Positions 18,562 to 27,402 of a DNA stretch of 58,701 bases are shown here, one piece after another. Each line of letters begins with the position of its first letter. Within the stretch, counting starts at the first letter, position 1. The translations under genes and the position numbers were made by a program. The stretch covers positions 576,687-635,387 of the forward strand of contig NZ_JALBGD010000002.1 of NCBI RefSeq assembly GCF_023507705.1, in the 5' to 3' direction. This stretch comes from Stappia sp. WLB 29. Its GTDB lineage: Bacteria > Pseudomonadota > Alphaproteobacteria > Rhizobiales > Stappiaceae. The notes under the pieces were generated by a model, which worked only from the letters and a program-made list of their open reading frames with translations, was not told the origin of the DNA and did no database searches.

Positions 18562-18582
18562 TGGTATTTGATTGACATACCA
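18562..18582. promoter_or_regulatory. LysR-type box candidate upstream of the hydroxyanthranilate dioxygenase operon
   Basis: TGGTAT-N9-ATACCA is a perfect 6-9-6 inverted repeat with the T-N11-A geometry of LysR-family binding sites. It lies 103 bases before the dioxygenase start in a 137-base gap after cysG. A comparable box is present at 24115-24137 in the same region, and a LysR gene lies at 22254. Binding by that regulator is inferred from position and geometry. Confidence 0.5.
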
Positions 18583-18685
18583 CTCTGCCGTCTCCTTGGC
18601 TGAGAAAAACGTGCGGACGACCGTGGGGCGGGGGCCCCGAAAGAAGCGGCGCCGTGCGCGAGCCAGCCAGCGCGGGGAGCCATAG

Positions 18686-19228
18686 ATGTCGAGACTTGCG
18701 GCCTTCAACTTTCAGAAATGGATCGAGGAACACAAGCACCTGCTGAAGCCGCCGGTCGGCAACCAGCAGGTTTTCAAGGACGCGGATCTGATGGTCACGG
18801 TGGTCGGGGGCCCGAACAAGCGCACCGACTATCACGACGATCCGGTGGAGGAGTTCTTCTACCAGCTCAAGGGCGACATGGTCCTGAAGGTCTACGACGG
18901 CAAGGAGTTTTACGACGTGCCGATCCGCGAGGGCGAGATCTTCCTGCTACCGCCGCATGTGCGCCACTCGCCGCAGCGCCCGCAGGAAGGCTCTGTCGGT
19001 CTCGTCATCGAATCGTCCCGCCCCGAAGGCGCGCTCGACGCCATCGAGTGGTACTGCTTCGAATGCCAGCACCTGGTCCATCGCGCCGAGCTCGACCTGG
19101 AGTCGATCGTCGACGACCTGCCGCCGGTCTACAAGGCATTCTACGCCTCCGAGGAAGACCGCACCTGCCCGAACTGCGGCACGGTGCATCCCGGCAAGGA
19201 GCCGCCGGAAGGCTGGGTCGTTCTCTGA
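18686..19228 (+). CDS. 3-hydroxyanthranilate 3,4-dioxygenase
   Basis: This 180-residue cupin dioxygenase opens the ring of 3-hydroxyanthranilate to 2-amino-3-carboxymuconate semialdehyde, which cyclises to quinolinate unless processed further. Iron ligands H50, E56 and H94 and the substrate arginines R46 and R98 are all in place. The C-terminal rubredoxin-like site has C124, C127, C161 and C164. Spacing is that of the bacterial enzyme. No other kynurenine-pathway genes (kynurenine formamidase, kynureninase, aminocarboxymuconate semialdehyde decarboxylase) are adjacent; a TRAP transporter follows instead. The residues make the catalytic assignment strong, but the physiological substrate in this setting is less certain. 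Confidence 0.92.
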
Positions 19229-19317
19229 GCGAACCGGGCGACAATTCTGTCCATTCCCATCGACTGAAGACGGCCGGCCCGCCCGCCGGGGCAGCGCCAT
19301 GCCGGGAGGAGCATCAC

Positions 19318-24220: not shown

Positions 24221-26443
24221 GTGGGAGGACGGGTGGCAGCCGTGACGATGAAGACCGGGCACGCTTCGCAGACGCTGCGGGACGGGGACGAATCCGCCGC
24301 CAATGCGCTCGTCGGGCGTGCCGTGCGCCGCCGCGAGGACGATGCGCTTGTGACCGGGCGGGGCCGTTACGTTTCCGACATTCCGCTTCATGATGCGCTG
24401 CATATCGCCTTCGTCCGCAGCCCCTTGCCGCGCGGGACCATCCTGAGCTGCGATGTCGAGGCCGCGCGGGAGATGGATGGGGTCGCCCACGTGGTGACGG
24501 GCGAGGATCTTTCCGGCTTTGGTCCGCGGGAAGGCGATGCCCTCGGCAGGCTCGCCGTCAACCCGGTCCTGCCGTTCGAGGGCGAGGCCGAGTTTCCTGT
24601 TCTTGCGCGCGGTTTTGTTGCGGCCGTCGGCCAACCGGTTGCGGCGGTTCTCGCGAGCGGGCGTTCCATTGCGCAGGATGCCGCGGACCTGGTCGGCGTC
24701 GACATCGATGAGGACGGCGCGGCGCCGGACTATTCCGGCGGGGATGTGCCGGGCTTTCGCGGCGACTGGTCCAGCGGCGACGTTGACGCAGCCTTTGCCG
24801 CGGCCGCCCTTGTGGTCGAGGTGGAGGTGCAGCATCCGCGTCTTGCGCCGTCTCCTCTCGAGCCGCGCGCGATTGCCGTCGACTACGATGCGGAGCGGGA
24901 TTGTGTGCTGGTCTGGTACTCGAGCCAGACACCGCACCGGGCGAGGCGTGAACTCTGCCGGATACTCGGCATCGAAGAGGCGCGGATCGCGGTCCGGGCG
25001 CCGGATGTCGGCGGCGCCTTCGGCATGAAGGCTTCGCTGTATCCGGAAGAGGTATTCGCCGTCTGGGCCGCCTTCCGTTTTCGCCGTTCCATCCGCTGGG
25101 CATCCAGCCGCAGCGAGGACCTGATCTCCGCAACGCATGGGCGCGGCGCGCGCAGCCGGGGGCGGCTGGCGCTCGACTCCGAGGGCCGCTTTCTCGCGCT
25201 GGCGGCCGAGGTGGACTGCCCGCTCGGCCACTGGCTGCCCAACAGCGCCGGCATTCCGGCCTGGAATGCAGGGCGGATCCTGCCGGGCGGCTACGACATT
25301 CCTGCGGTCGATATCCATTCCCGAGCAAAGCTCACGCACAGCGCGGCGGTCGGCATCTATCGCGGTGCGGGGCGTCCGGAGGCCAATTGCCTGATGGAGC
25401 GGCTCGTCGACGAGGCGGCAAGCGCCAGCGGTATCGATCCGCTGGAAATCCGCCGCCGCAATTTGCTGGCACCTGACCGGCTGTCGCATGCGGGGCCGAC
25501 CGGTACAAAGCTCGATTCCGGCCGCTATGCCGAACTGCTCGACAAGCTGGCAGGGGATGCGGACTACGACCGGCTGAAGGAGCGGCGCGACTGGATCCGG
25601 GCAGAGGGCGGCGTCGCCGGCCTCGGCCTTGCCTTCTATGTCGAGCCCTGCGGGACGGGCTGGGAAAGCGCGCGGGTGACGCTGCATCCGGACGGGCGCG
25701 CGGAGGTGGCGAGCGGCGGCAGCAGCCAGGGGCACGGCCGCGAAACGGCCTTCGCCCAGATCGCCGCCGACCGGCTGTCCCTGTCGTTCGAGCGGGTGCG
25801 CGTGCTGCACGGGTCCACCGAAGATTGCCCCACCGGCATCGGCGCGCTGGCCAGCCGCAGCACGCCGATCGGCGGAAGCGCGGTTGTGGAGGCCTGCGAT
25901 GCAGTGCTGGCGAAGCTTTCGGACGGTGCGGATCGCGGCAAGCCGGTGAGCGCCAAGGTGGTCTACGAGGCCAAGGGCGAGGCCTGGGGCTACGGCGCCT
26001 ATCTCGTTCTTCTGACCATCGATCCGGACACCGGCACGCCAACCATCGAGGAGGCGCATTGCTGCGACGACATCGGCACGGTGATCAACCCGATGATGGT
26101 CGAGGGGCAGATCCGGGGCGGCTTTGCGCAAGGGATCGGCGAGGCCTTGATGGAGCGGATCGTCTATGACGCCGACGGTCAGCTGCTGACCGGCTCGCTG
26201 ATGGACTACGCGCTGCCGCGCGCCTCCGACATGCCGCACCTTTCCATCGGCAAGATGTCGACGCCATCGCCCGCCAACGCGCTCGGCGCCAAGGGGGTCG
26301 GCGAGGCCGGCACCATCGGTGCCCCGGCCGCAATCCTCAATGCCGCCAACGACGCGCTGCGCCCCCATGGCGCCGCGATACTGTCCATGCCGCTGACCGC
26401 CGAGGCGCTGTGGCGCGCCCTGCGCTCGGCTCCAATGAGGTGA
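24221..26443 (+). CDS. Xanthine dehydrogenase-family molybdopterin-binding subunit
   Basis: This 740-residue protein matches the large catalytic subunit of the xanthine oxidase family, which hydroxylates N-heterocycles or aldehydes using a molybdenum cofactor. Visible features: the N-terminal a/b hammerhead (about 30-150, with LVTGRGRYVSDI), the cofactor segment DVGGAFGMKASLYPEE near 265, YRGAGRPEANCLMERLVDEAA near 385, and the C-terminal active-site glutamate in GAKGVGEAGTIGAPAA. No iron-sulfur or FAD subunit gene is adjacent, so partner proteins must be unlinked or absent. GTG at 24221 is used; ATG at 24248 is an alternative. The DapA-family gene begins 5 bases after its stop, so both probably act in one pathway. 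Confidence 0.85.
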   Translation: MGGRVAAVTMKTGHASQTLRDGDESAANALVGRAVRRREDDALVTGRGRYVSDIPLHDALHIAFVRSPLPRGTILSCDVEAAREMDGVAHVVTGEDLSGFGPREGDALGRLAVNPVLPFEGEAEFPVLARGFVAAVGQPVAAVLASGRSIAQDAADLVGVDIDEDGAAPDYSGGDVPGFRGDWSSGDVDAAFAAAALVVEVEVQHPRLAPSPLEPRAIAVDYDAERDCVLVWYSSQTPHRARRELCRILGIEEARIAVRAPDVGGAFGMKASLYPEEVFAVWAAFRFRRSIRWASSRSEDLISATHGRGARSRGRLALDSEGRFLALAAEVDCPLGHWLPNSAGIPAWNAGRILPGGYDIPAVDIHSRAKLTHSAAVGIYRGAGRPEANCLMERLVDEAASASGIDPLEIRRRNLLAPDRLSHAGPTGTKLDSGRYAELLDKLAGDADYDRLKERRDWIRAEGGVAGLGLAFYVEPCGTGWESARVTLHPDGRAEVASGGSSQGHGRETAFAQIAADRLSLSFERVRVLHGSTEDCPTGIGALASRSTPIGGSAVVEACDAVLAKLSDGADRGKPVSAKVVYEAKGEAWGYGAYLVLLTIDPDTGTPTIEEAHCCDDIGTVINPMMVEGQIRGGFAQGIGEALMERIVYDADGQLLTGSLMDYALPRASDMPHLSIGKMSTPSPANALGAKGVGEAGTIGAPAAILNAANDALRPHGAAILSMPLTAEALWRALRSAPMR

Positions 26444-26448
26444 CCGAA

Positions 26449-27402
26449 ATGAACTATTCGAGGCTCGACGCCAAGGCCTATGCCCGTGCCAACATGAAGG
26501 GGATCTGGGCTGCGGCGCTCAATCCGTTCCGCGAGGATTTCTCCTTCGACGAGGAGGGCTTGCGGTCGAACATTCGCCACTGGGTGGACGATCTTGCCAT
26601 CGCCGGGCTGTTCATCGCCGGCAAGCAGGGCGAGTTCTTCTCCATGTCGCTCGCCGAGCGCAAGCGCAACTTCGAGATCGCGGTGGAGGAGACGGCGGGC
26701 AAGGCGGGGACGATCATGTCCTGCTCCGACCAGAACTTCGACACGGTGATCGAGCTCGCCCGGCACGCGGAGGCAGTGGGCGCCGACTACATCGTGGTGC
26801 ATGCGCCGATCCTGCATTTCATCAGCGATCAGGACGACACGGTCTACGAATATTACAAGGCGATCTGCGAGCGCGTGAACATCGGCATCGCCATGTGGAG
26901 CCACCCGGATTCGGGCTATCTGATGAGCCCGGAACTGTGCGCGCGCGTTGCGGAGCTGCCGAACATCGTCGCCATCAAGTACAGCGTGCCGCGGCCGATG
27001 TATGTGAAGCTGACAGAAATGGTCGGCGACAAGATCCTCGTCTCCACCGCCTCGGAAGAGGAGTGGCTCGACAACATTCTCGAGCTCGGCTGGCAGCTCT
27101 ACCTGTGTTCCTCGCCGCCCTACCTGCTGCAGACGGCGAAGGATCGGCGCATGCACGACTACACGCAGGCCGCCTTTGCCGGCGACGCGGAGCGGGCGAG
27201 GGCGATCAGCGCCAGCCTCGATCCGGTGCGCAAGGCGCTGCGCGGCACGCGGCCCGGCGGCAAGCCGCAGGCGCACCAGAAATACTGGCAGGAGCTCCTG
27301 GGCCAGGTCGGCGGGCCGGTGCGCCCGCCCTTGCTGCAGCTGACCGATGCGGAGCGGGAGGCGACCCGCGCCGCCTTCGAGGCTTGCGGACTGACGCTCT
27401 GA
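26449..27402 (+). CDS. Dihydrodipicolinate synthase/N-acetylneuraminate lyase-family protein (DapA superfamily)
   Basis: This 317-residue class I aldolase-fold protein has the Schiff-base lysine at K177 in NIVAIKYSV. The segment normally containing the catalytic tyrosine reads IVVHAPILHF, with no tyrosine, so it is unlikely to be the lysine-biosynthetic DapA. The early GKQGEF segment takes the place of the usual GTTGE. Members with such changes are lyases, hydratases or aldolases for diverse keto acids. The start at 26449 follows GAGGTGACC and lies just after the molybdopterin gene, suggesting a joint catabolic route. The reaction cannot be named from sequence. Confidence 0.82.
   Translation: MNYSRLDAKAYARANMKGIWAAALNPFREDFSFDEEGLRSNIRHWVDDLAIAGLFIAGKQGEFFSMSLAERKRNFEIAVEETAGKAGTIMSCSDQNFDTVIELARHAEAVGADYIVVHAPILHFISDQDDTVYEYYKAICERVNIGIAMWSHPDSGYLMSPELCARVAELPNIVAIKYSVPRPMYVKLTEMVGDKILVSTASEEEWLDNILELGWQLYLCSSPPYLLQTAKDRRMHDYTQAAFAGDAERARAISASLDPVRKALRGTRPGGKPQAHQKYWQELLGQVGGPVRPPLLQLTDAEREATRAAFEACGLTL

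Follow-up and report, generated by a model that had tools for sequence, protein, structure and literature searches.

A conserved gene module of Stappia sp. WLB 29 points to degradation of 3-hydroxyanthranilate without the usual decarboxylase

Analysis of a 58,701-nucleotide stretch of DNA from Stappia sp. WLB 29 (contig NZ_JALBGD010000002.1, positions 576,687 to 635,387 of the forward strand; the whole stretch is called the window) revealed a module of eight intact genes within 18562..27402. The genes encode a 3-hydroxyanthranilate 3,4-dioxygenase (HAO), a three-gene tripartite ATP-independent periplasmic (TRAP) transporter, a LysR-type regulator, an L-aspartate dehydrogenase family protein (AspDH), a molybdopterin hydroxylase large subunit (MoCo) and a DapA-family lyase. 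With high probability, they form a conserved, co-regulated catabolic module of the 3-hydroxyanthranilate (3HAA) type without ACMSD, the decarboxylase of 2-amino-3-carboxymuconate semialdehyde (ACMS). We give an even chance to the fuller proposal of a LysR-controlled group of operons for 3HAA uptake and ACMSD-independent degradation via cleavage by the lyase. That the lyase would cut between C3 and C4 to release a C4 aspartate precursor is rated as equally balanced.

3HAA is central to tryptophan breakdown. In the textbook route, it is degraded by HAO, ACMSD, 2-aminomuconate semialdehyde dehydrogenase (AMSDH) and a deaminase. Catabolism of 3HAA is known; the analysis suggests that the different lower pathway is the new part. 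No paper describing this route was found by title or abstract, in a literature search with most subscription papers outside its coverage.

Organization of the module

HAO-DctP-DctQ-DctM lay on the plus strand, followed by LysR and AspDH on the minus strand and a divergent MoCo-lyase pair on the plus strand. All the proteins named in an earlier note on this DNA were encoded by intact genes; the note counted a six-protein module, and the gene count was eight. The features were as follows.

18531..18547, plus strand: LysR box TATC-N9-GATA with one mismatch, upstream of HAO; a box with one mismatch also lies upstream of HAO in locus L108
18562..18582, plus strand: LysR-type dyad TGGTAT-N9-ATACCA, upstream of HAO; its arms covary in L109 (TGCTAT/ATAGCA)
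18686..19228, plus strand: HAO; Pfam 3-HAO 181 bits, PRK13264 and TIGR03037 over cut-off, relative of PDB 1YFU
19318..20319, plus strand: TRAP solute receptor DctP; Pfam DctP, 67% identity over 314 residues to PDB chain 4PAF
20439..20987, plus strand: TRAP small permease DctQ; Pfam DctQ
20984..22246, plus strand: TRAP large permease DctM; TIGR00786 over cut-off
22254..23264, minus strand: LysR-type regulator, PcaQ-like; Pfam HTH_1 and LysR_substrate, TIGR02424 232 bits, below the cut-off of 303.8
23261..24061, minus strand: AspDH; PRK13303.1-3 316 bits (cut-off 177), Pfam Asp_DH_C
24115..24137, plus strand: perfect dyad TGCTATC-N9-GATAGCA between AspDH and MoCo, holding an exact LysR box at 24118-24134
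24221..26443, plus strand: MoCo, molybdopterin hydroxylase/aldehyde oxidase large subunit of the CoxL/XdhB family; Pfam MoCoBD_1/2 and Ald_Xan_dh_C, GVGE at residue 692
26449..27402, plus strand: DapA-family (class I) lyase of a distinct subfamily; Pfam DHDPS 111 bits, Lys177, Trp150, GKQGE motif

AspDH came first in the minus-strand unit. The LysR gene may start at GTG 23264, in which case it overlaps AspDH by a few bases, or at the internal position 23207 preferred by the gene caller. The lyase was assigned an ATG start at 26449, with a GTG at 26410 also possible.

Conservation and distribution

A survey of 297 genomes of the window's order showed 30 with HAO, 25 with the lyase and 23 with both (Fisher p about 5e-26). 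The Fisher and LysR-box p values given here are indicative only, since the genomes and rows compared are related. Lyase loci were further collected from one genome per species across 84,980 species, and the best 80 of at least 527 candidates were kept, a set skewed to close relatives. The candidates were picked by two peptide patterns (around GKQG and SCSDQN), the conservation of which is partly by construction. Linkage was called by set identity and coverage thresholds, with an aldehyde dehydrogenase (ALDH) orthologue defined as at least 52% identical to the L086 protein; broken matches, such as the MoCo and AspDH pieces in L148, were not counted as linked, and the Pfam or NCBIfam scans covered selected neighbours only.

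HAO was linked in 61 of the 80 lyase loci. For the 19 others, 16 genomes were searched (those of L129, L148 and L163 were left out for their short contigs); HAO turned up elsewhere in every one of the 16, at 36% identity in one and at no less than 50% in the remaining 15. AspDH was linked in 44 loci, MoCo in 43 and an ALDH orthologue resembling succinate semialdehyde dehydrogenase (SSADH) in 19. As to importers and regulators, a TRAP receptor orthologue was present in 21 loci, a Liv-type ABC receptor in 18, a window-type LysR in 36 and another LysR in 17. At least four switches between TRAP and Liv importers were counted on the lyase tree, a quick tree of the 103 rows of the lyase alignment, in which some genomes were entered twice (L039/L132, L040/L125).

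By their titles, the 80 loci were mostly from Alphaproteobacteria, with some from Gamma- and Deltaproteobacteria and from metagenome-assembled genomes of Binatia. HAO, lyase and AspDH together with MoCo or ALDH were carried on plasmids of Phaeobacter, Sinorhizobium, Rhizobium, Chelatococcus and Paroceanicella. The genes thus co-occur widely, contrary to one of the outcomes against which the earlier note had proposed a genome search. Chance juxtaposition of unrelated genes, to which the varying detail of cluster composition between genomes might lend itself, is refuted by the HAO/lyase association in the order, the linkage in the 80 loci and the joint plasmid occurrence in five genera. The picture was less simple in genome G037, where one contig carried HAO beside a RidA-family gene and a second contig carried MoCo-lyase-AspDH-LysR.

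The lyase was plasmid-borne in 47 records, 23 of them Phaeobacter. On Phaeobacter pGal_C110 (L232, L235), it was accompanied by kynU, HAO, ALDH, AspDH, LysR, TRAP and a tripartite tricarboxylate transporter.

Absence of the ACMSD route

ACMSD matches at E<=1e-40 were found in 36 genomes of the order; four with at least 68% identity were kept as orthologues, the others reaching at most 37%. The genome of the window had no match at E<=1e-40. All four orthologue-bearing genomes had HAO and no lyase, and they made up four of the seven HAO-only genomes; none of the 23 genomes with HAO and lyase had an ACMSD orthologue (Fisher p 0.0013), the amidohydrolase of G020 being 33% identical. ACMSD followed HAO in an operon with a RidA-family gene in three genomes (L091-L093), and in the fourth (G047), where the contig ends, a piece of ACMSD came after HAO. 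G114 (71% complete, with MoCo, AspDH and HAO on one contig), G185 and G171 were the remaining HAO-only genomes.

In the window, no RidA-family deaminase gene was present next to HAO; the only match, at 4216-4605, lay 14 kb off and was 32% identical to the L092 protein. The L108 counterpart of this ORF lay about 1.2 kb from HAO. Compared with the nba/kynurenine-type route (HAO-ACMSD-AMSDH-deaminase), the module shares the first enzyme and, probably, the ring-cleavage product, and some relatives also carry feeders of that type upstream (kynureninase, PnbB-type lyase). It differed in having no ACMSD orthologue, no AMSDH-type dehydrogenase that was recognised and no adjoining RidA deaminase; in their place stood the DapA-family lyase, AspDH, and MoCo or the SSADH-like ALDH.

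HAO and the likely substrate

HAO exceeded the cut-offs of the two NCBIfam equivalogs PRK13264 (281.8 vs 220) and TIGR03037 (264.9 vs 145.95). Aligned with the solved structure 1YFU, it was the same at the iron ligands, the substrate arginines and the rubredoxin-like Cys pairs, in agreement with the claim of a catalytically complete dioxygenase. It was 87-98% identical in the four nearest genomes carrying HAO.

The lack of the usual kynurenine-pathway neighbours proved true of the window and not of all relatives, some of whose clusters hold kynureninase or tryptophan dioxygenase. Kynureninase was found in the clusters of L152 and of Phaeobacter gallaeciensis pGal_C110, and in Tritonibacter at the edge of the region viewed; tryptophan 2,3-dioxygenase was found in the cluster of L124, whose HAO is on another contig. 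A PnbB-family 4-hydroxylaminobenzoate lyase with FMN and flavin reductases was present in Sinorhizobium mexicanum, a DUF4863-named gene took its position in Rhizobium bangladeshense, and an HpaB-type monooxygenase with a flavin reductase occurred in the clusters of L103 and L104. Degradation of 2-nitrobenzoate via 2-hydroxylaminobenzoate and 3HAA has been described (PMC9302171), and anthranilate can be hydroxylated to 3HAA (PMC4539516). Because kynureninase, tryptophan dioxygenase and the PnbB-type lyase of these clusters all lead towards 3HAA, 3HAA is the probable substrate. An imported N-heteroaromatic or amino-aromatic acid had been suggested earlier; the amino-aromatic half of this stands, as the module looks like 3HAA metabolism and not like that of an unknown heteroaromatic.

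The TRAP receptor was 67% identical to PDB 4PAF/4PAI/4PBH, and DctP orthologues at 83-86% adjoined HAO in L121 and L131. These structures are presumably of the Ruegeria pomeroyi aromatic-carboxylate receptor SPO1773, with hydroxybenzoates and benzoate as its probable ligands.

A separate cluster of tryptophan dioxygenase, kynureninase and a cyclase-family (formamidase-like) gene with a GntR regulator was found elsewhere in the genome of the window (C35, L221). Since these genes are present, 3HAA or anthranilate could also form inside the cell, which complicates a simple picture of import. In L147, L156, L164 and L175, a GcvT/DmdA-like gene for a tetrahydrofolate-dependent demethylase lay directly before lyase-HAO (the domain was searched in L147), which hints that O-demethylation of a methoxyanthranilate may precede the pathway there.

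LysR box and co-regulation

The sequence TATC-N9-GATA, a T-N11-A LysR motif, occurred upstream of HAO with one mismatch and exactly in the AspDH-MoCo gap. The dyads at 18562-18582 and 24115-24137, together with this box, bear out the observation that LysR-like boxes flank both ends. On the window alone the motif was not above chance (7 matches, 4.2 expected). Among 34 loci with a called window-type LysR, the box was found with at most one mismatch in 39 of 56 upstream regions of HAO or MoCo and in 9 of 187 intergenic controls. Fifteen of these loci had been printed before the motif was fixed; in the other 19, used as a hold-out, the box occurred in 15 of 27 upstream regions and 6 of 104 controls (p 2.6e-8). 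Among loci with another LysR type, it was found in 1 of 16 tested. Because the box is common to both units across relatives, the HAO and MoCo units are very likely under one regulator, and the independent regulation that would have spoken against a module is not what the sequences suggest.

The DapA-family lyase

The lyase subfamily was tight: 13 sequences from the order were 62-79% identical to that of the window, with a mean column identity of 73%. The nearest solved structures were NanA- and DapA-named chains, at no more than 103 bits, and the best NCBIfam match was KdgD, at 95 bits against a cut-off of 374. In the plasmid records viewed, the protein was labelled only "dihydrodipicolinate synthase family protein".

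The Schiff-base lysine K177 was kept in all 103 alignment rows. At the position of the catalytic tyrosine of DapA/NanA, located by alignment with solved chains, Trp150 was found in every row, so that the lyase indeed lacks the DapA tyrosine as first noticed. Lys59, His118 and His152, which align with active-site positions, were likewise found in all 103 rows; they would be suited to a tricarboxylate. Across the DapA superfamily, aldol cleavage has been associated with the tyrosine (PMC5380162), and KdaD has Glu in place of this conserved catalytic residue (PMC13398020). The hydratase-aldolase type of reaction exists in the superfamily (PMC5380162, PMC13398020). With its hydratase-aldolases (trans-o-hydroxybenzylidenepyruvate, 2'-carboxybenzalpyruvate), the lyase shares the class I fold family and the Schiff-base lysine, and hydration followed by cleavage after ring opening is proposed for it also. 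By description it is set apart by Trp for Tyr, the GKQGE motif and a proposed C4 product (oxaloacetate/iminosuccinate) instead of pyruvate.

MoCo and its exchange with an aldehyde dehydrogenase

MoCo had the full molybdopterin domain set (Pfam) and, at residue 692, the GVGE motif of the catalytic Glu. It lay directly upstream of the lyase in all 43 MoCo loci, with a 4-base overlap in 24. MoCo and the ALDH orthologue were together in none of the 80 loci (43 MoCo, 19 ALDH, 18 neither); of the 53 loci of at least 20 kb, 34 had MoCo, 16 ALDH and 3 neither. At least eight MoCo/ALDH switches were counted on the lyase tree, and the layout of L187 resembled those of L119 and L126 with ALDH replacing MoCo. 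Because the two exclude each other and MoCo adjoins the lyase, both probably oxidise an aldehyde next to the lyase step.

The ALDH of the relatives was closest to PDB chains named for alpha-ketoglutarate semialdehyde (KGSA) dehydrogenase and SSADH, and none of 52 matches (E<=1e-80) was named AMSDH; going by these names, it looks unlikely to be an AMSDH. Calling the molybdopterin subunit an orphan was right for the window: MoCo had no linked Fe-S or FAD subunit, and the genome had seven molybdopterin large subunits and only four FAD subunits, all four adjoining other large subunits of their own. CoxG, CoxS and CoxM homologues were found near MoCo in L119 and L124, linked in L119 as CoxG-CoxS-CoxM, and for this reason the lone subunit probably uses such partners.

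The domain set and GVGE were common to MoCo and the CoxL/XdhB hydroxylases (carbon-monoxide dehydrogenase, quinoline 2-oxidoreductase, glyceraldehyde dehydrogenase), from which it differed by the absence of Fe-S/FAD genes in the window. A true CO or xanthine dehydrogenase was rejected, as MoCo fell below every NCBIfam cut-off listed. It has GIYRGAGR where CO dehydrogenase has its cysteine loop.

AspDH

AspDH passed two PRK13303 cut-offs and contained the Asp_DH_C domain, and its activity is predicted accordingly. It scored below the NadX model TIGR03855 (148.5 vs 206.55), and its context of aromatic catabolism is unlike the NAD-synthesis context of NadX. For the 36 loci without linked AspDH, 32 genomes were searched (those of L129, L148, L151 and L175 were left out for their short contigs); a homologue was present in 29, in 13 of them with an identity of at least 42% and in the other 16 with one of 29-40%. 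In a 150-genome draw, taken as labels G000-G149 with G000 the genome of the window, an AspDH match was present in 13 of 16 lyase genomes and 32 of 134 others. The link from AspDH to iminoaspartate drawn in the earlier note remains the key clue, read here as the C4 half of the ring-cleavage product and not as a quinolinate precursor. The genome of the window also has a second AspDH, 35% identical (C37, L106), whose gene adjoins those of an amino-acid binding protein and an M20 peptidase.

Proposed pathway and alternative explanations

ACMS is HOOC-C(NH2)=C(COOH)-CH=CH-CHO. In the proposed pathway, the TRAP transporter would import 3HAA or a precursor carboxylate, and HAO would turn 3HAA into ACMS. 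MoCo, or elsewhere the SSADH-like ALDH, would then oxidise an aldehyde, most likely that of ACMS itself; oxidation of the C3 product after cleavage would also fit, because ALDH resembles SSADH and KGSA dehydrogenase. The lyase would form a Schiff base at C2 through Lys177, hydrate C4 and cleave C3-C4 as a hydratase-aldolase, giving iminosuccinate/oxaloacetate and, after oxidation at C6, malonate semialdehyde. AspDH would reduce the C4 imine to L-aspartate, so that the nitrogen is retained and reducing power is used again, and aspartate and malonate semialdehyde would then enter central metabolism. The linkage of AspDH is explained in this way, because C1-C2-C3 of ACMS with two carboxylates make the skeleton of iminosuccinate and the remaining three carbons a C3 unit. 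Cleavage at C3-C4 was the only simple reading found that would give the linked AspDH its own substrate. Chemically, the split would be the reverse of the joining of iminoaspartate and a C3 unit by quinolinate synthase. Somewhat more tentatively, at a little under an even chance, we propose a widespread undescribed lower pathway, in which a new, Tyr-less DapA-superfamily hydratase-aldolase takes the ring-cleavage product of 3HAA straight to an aspartate precursor and a C3 semialdehyde, with interchangeable MoCo and NAD-dependent ALDH.

If this is true, many Alphaproteobacteria (the marine Roseobacter group, Stappia, Bosea, rhizobia) and some other Proteobacteria recover the ring nitrogen as aspartate, the DapA subfamily gains a reaction, and the travelling of AspDH and a lone molybdopterin subunit with a ring-cleavage dioxygenase is explained.

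Several observations count against this pathway. No consistently linked malonate-semialdehyde gene was seen, among neighbours of which only some were annotated. The tryptophan found throughout in place of the aldol-cleavage tyrosine means that the proton relay must differ. In 18 lyase loci, neither MoCo nor the ALDH orthologue was linked, and a pair test of MoCo and ALDH that allowed for the tree had too small a number of pairs to reach significance (median p 0.25). How strictly the two exclude each other also varies with the identity threshold: a distant ALDH (30-41%) is present in the stretch examined at four of the 43 MoCo loci (L108, L109, L128, L150), the window has an aldehyde dehydrogenase ORF at 34435-35922, whose matching part (34438-35844) is 41% identical to the SSADH-like type of the relatives and which follows the lyase at a distance of 7 kb, and L088, which is not among the 80 loci, combines MoCo with an ALDH at 52%. 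CoxS/CoxM homologues were near MoCo in only 2 of 43 loci, and the 16 unlinked AspDH matches at 29-40% may be ordinary NadX-type enzymes. G061 (99% complete; L226) and G204 (74%; L227) have the lyase and no HAO at E<=1e-20, which suggests a second role for the lyase or a missed dioxygenase. The lyases of L226 and L227 keep the key residues, except for Q60, which is L in L227.

The lyase might instead act as a Schiff-base decarboxylase/deaminase, standing in for both ACMSD and 2-aminomuconate deaminase and leading into the ordinary 4-oxalocrotonate route, with AspDH only balancing nitrogen. The DapA superfamily includes dehydratases and the decarboxylating KdgD (PMC13398020), KdgD is the best NCBIfam match of the lyase, albeit far below cut-off, and lyase and ACMSD orthologues were never in one genome of the 297. 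We consider this explanation fairly unlikely, since it leaves the AspDH linkage unexplained and 4-hydroxy-2-oxovalerate aldolase reached its cut-off in only 2 of the 23 HAO+lyase genomes, not including that of the window; the latter point is weak, as the aldolase was found in only one of the four ACMSD genomes. 4-Oxalocrotonate decarboxylase reached its cut-off in none of 32 genomes. Another explanation, which is quite unlikely, is that a relative of 3HAA (a substituted anthranilate, or a methoxy- or N-acyl-aminophenol carboxylate) is degraded through HAO, with a substrate varying by lineage. It would account for the interchange of TRAP and Liv ABC importers and for the variable upstream genes (DmdA/GcvT-like demethylase, P450, FAD monooxygenase, alpha/beta hydrolases); against it, the kynureninase, tryptophan dioxygenase and PnbB-type genes of several clusters point to 3HAA, and HAO is 87-98% identical in the four nearest genomes with it and passes the equivalog cut-offs.

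A supply of NAD precursors, the second suggestion of the earlier note, would have ACMS close to quinolinate and a NadX-like AspDH make iminoaspartate for quinolinate synthase. Both enzyme families do lead to quinolinate, ACMS cyclises to it spontaneously (PMC10143591), and in some of the plasmid records AspDH is tagged with the GO term for NAD biosynthesis. In six named PLSDB plasmid records, whose gene tables are incomplete, no quinolinate synthase or other NAD-synthesis gene was listed besides AspDH. The tightest partner of HAO is the lyase and not a quinolinate enzyme, importers and LysR control suit catabolism, and lyase, oxidase/dehydrogenase and importer would drain the quinolinate precursor. 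This suggestion is therefore very improbable and was rejected as the main role. The module is better supported as an uptake-and-catabolism set for an amino-aromatic acid, regulated as far as the sequence evidence goes.

Neighbouring genes

The host genome is 4.75 Mb in size, and the closest named loci were those of Stappia indica and Stappia stellulata. Upstream of the module, a block of about 13 kb (5534-18497) presumably holds genes for nitrate/nitrite assimilation, the last of them a CysG-like ORF; the block's final stop codon (18546-18548) coincides with one edge of the LysR box that precedes HAO. The RidA-family ORF (4216-4605) and a MurR/RpiR-type regulator (4652-5533) stand directly before HAO in Stappia relatives and are separated from it by this block in the window; congeners (L108/L082, L032) as well as L109 and L111 have no such block between the RpiR-type gene and HAO. 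The two genes may be an ancestral part of the HAO neighbourhood.

Downstream, an ORF that we take to be an aminotransferase (33033-34403) lies beside the aldehyde dehydrogenase ORF. The pair follows the lyase at a distance of 6-8 kb in the window and of no more than about 2 kb in L109, and could serve the C3 semialdehyde or be unrelated. Between lyase and pair, three minus-strand ORFs (27419-32242) resemble an N-acetylglutaminylglutamine osmolyte cluster, presumably an M42-like peptidase, an ATP-grasp/GNAT synthetase and an asparagine-synthase-like amidotransferase.

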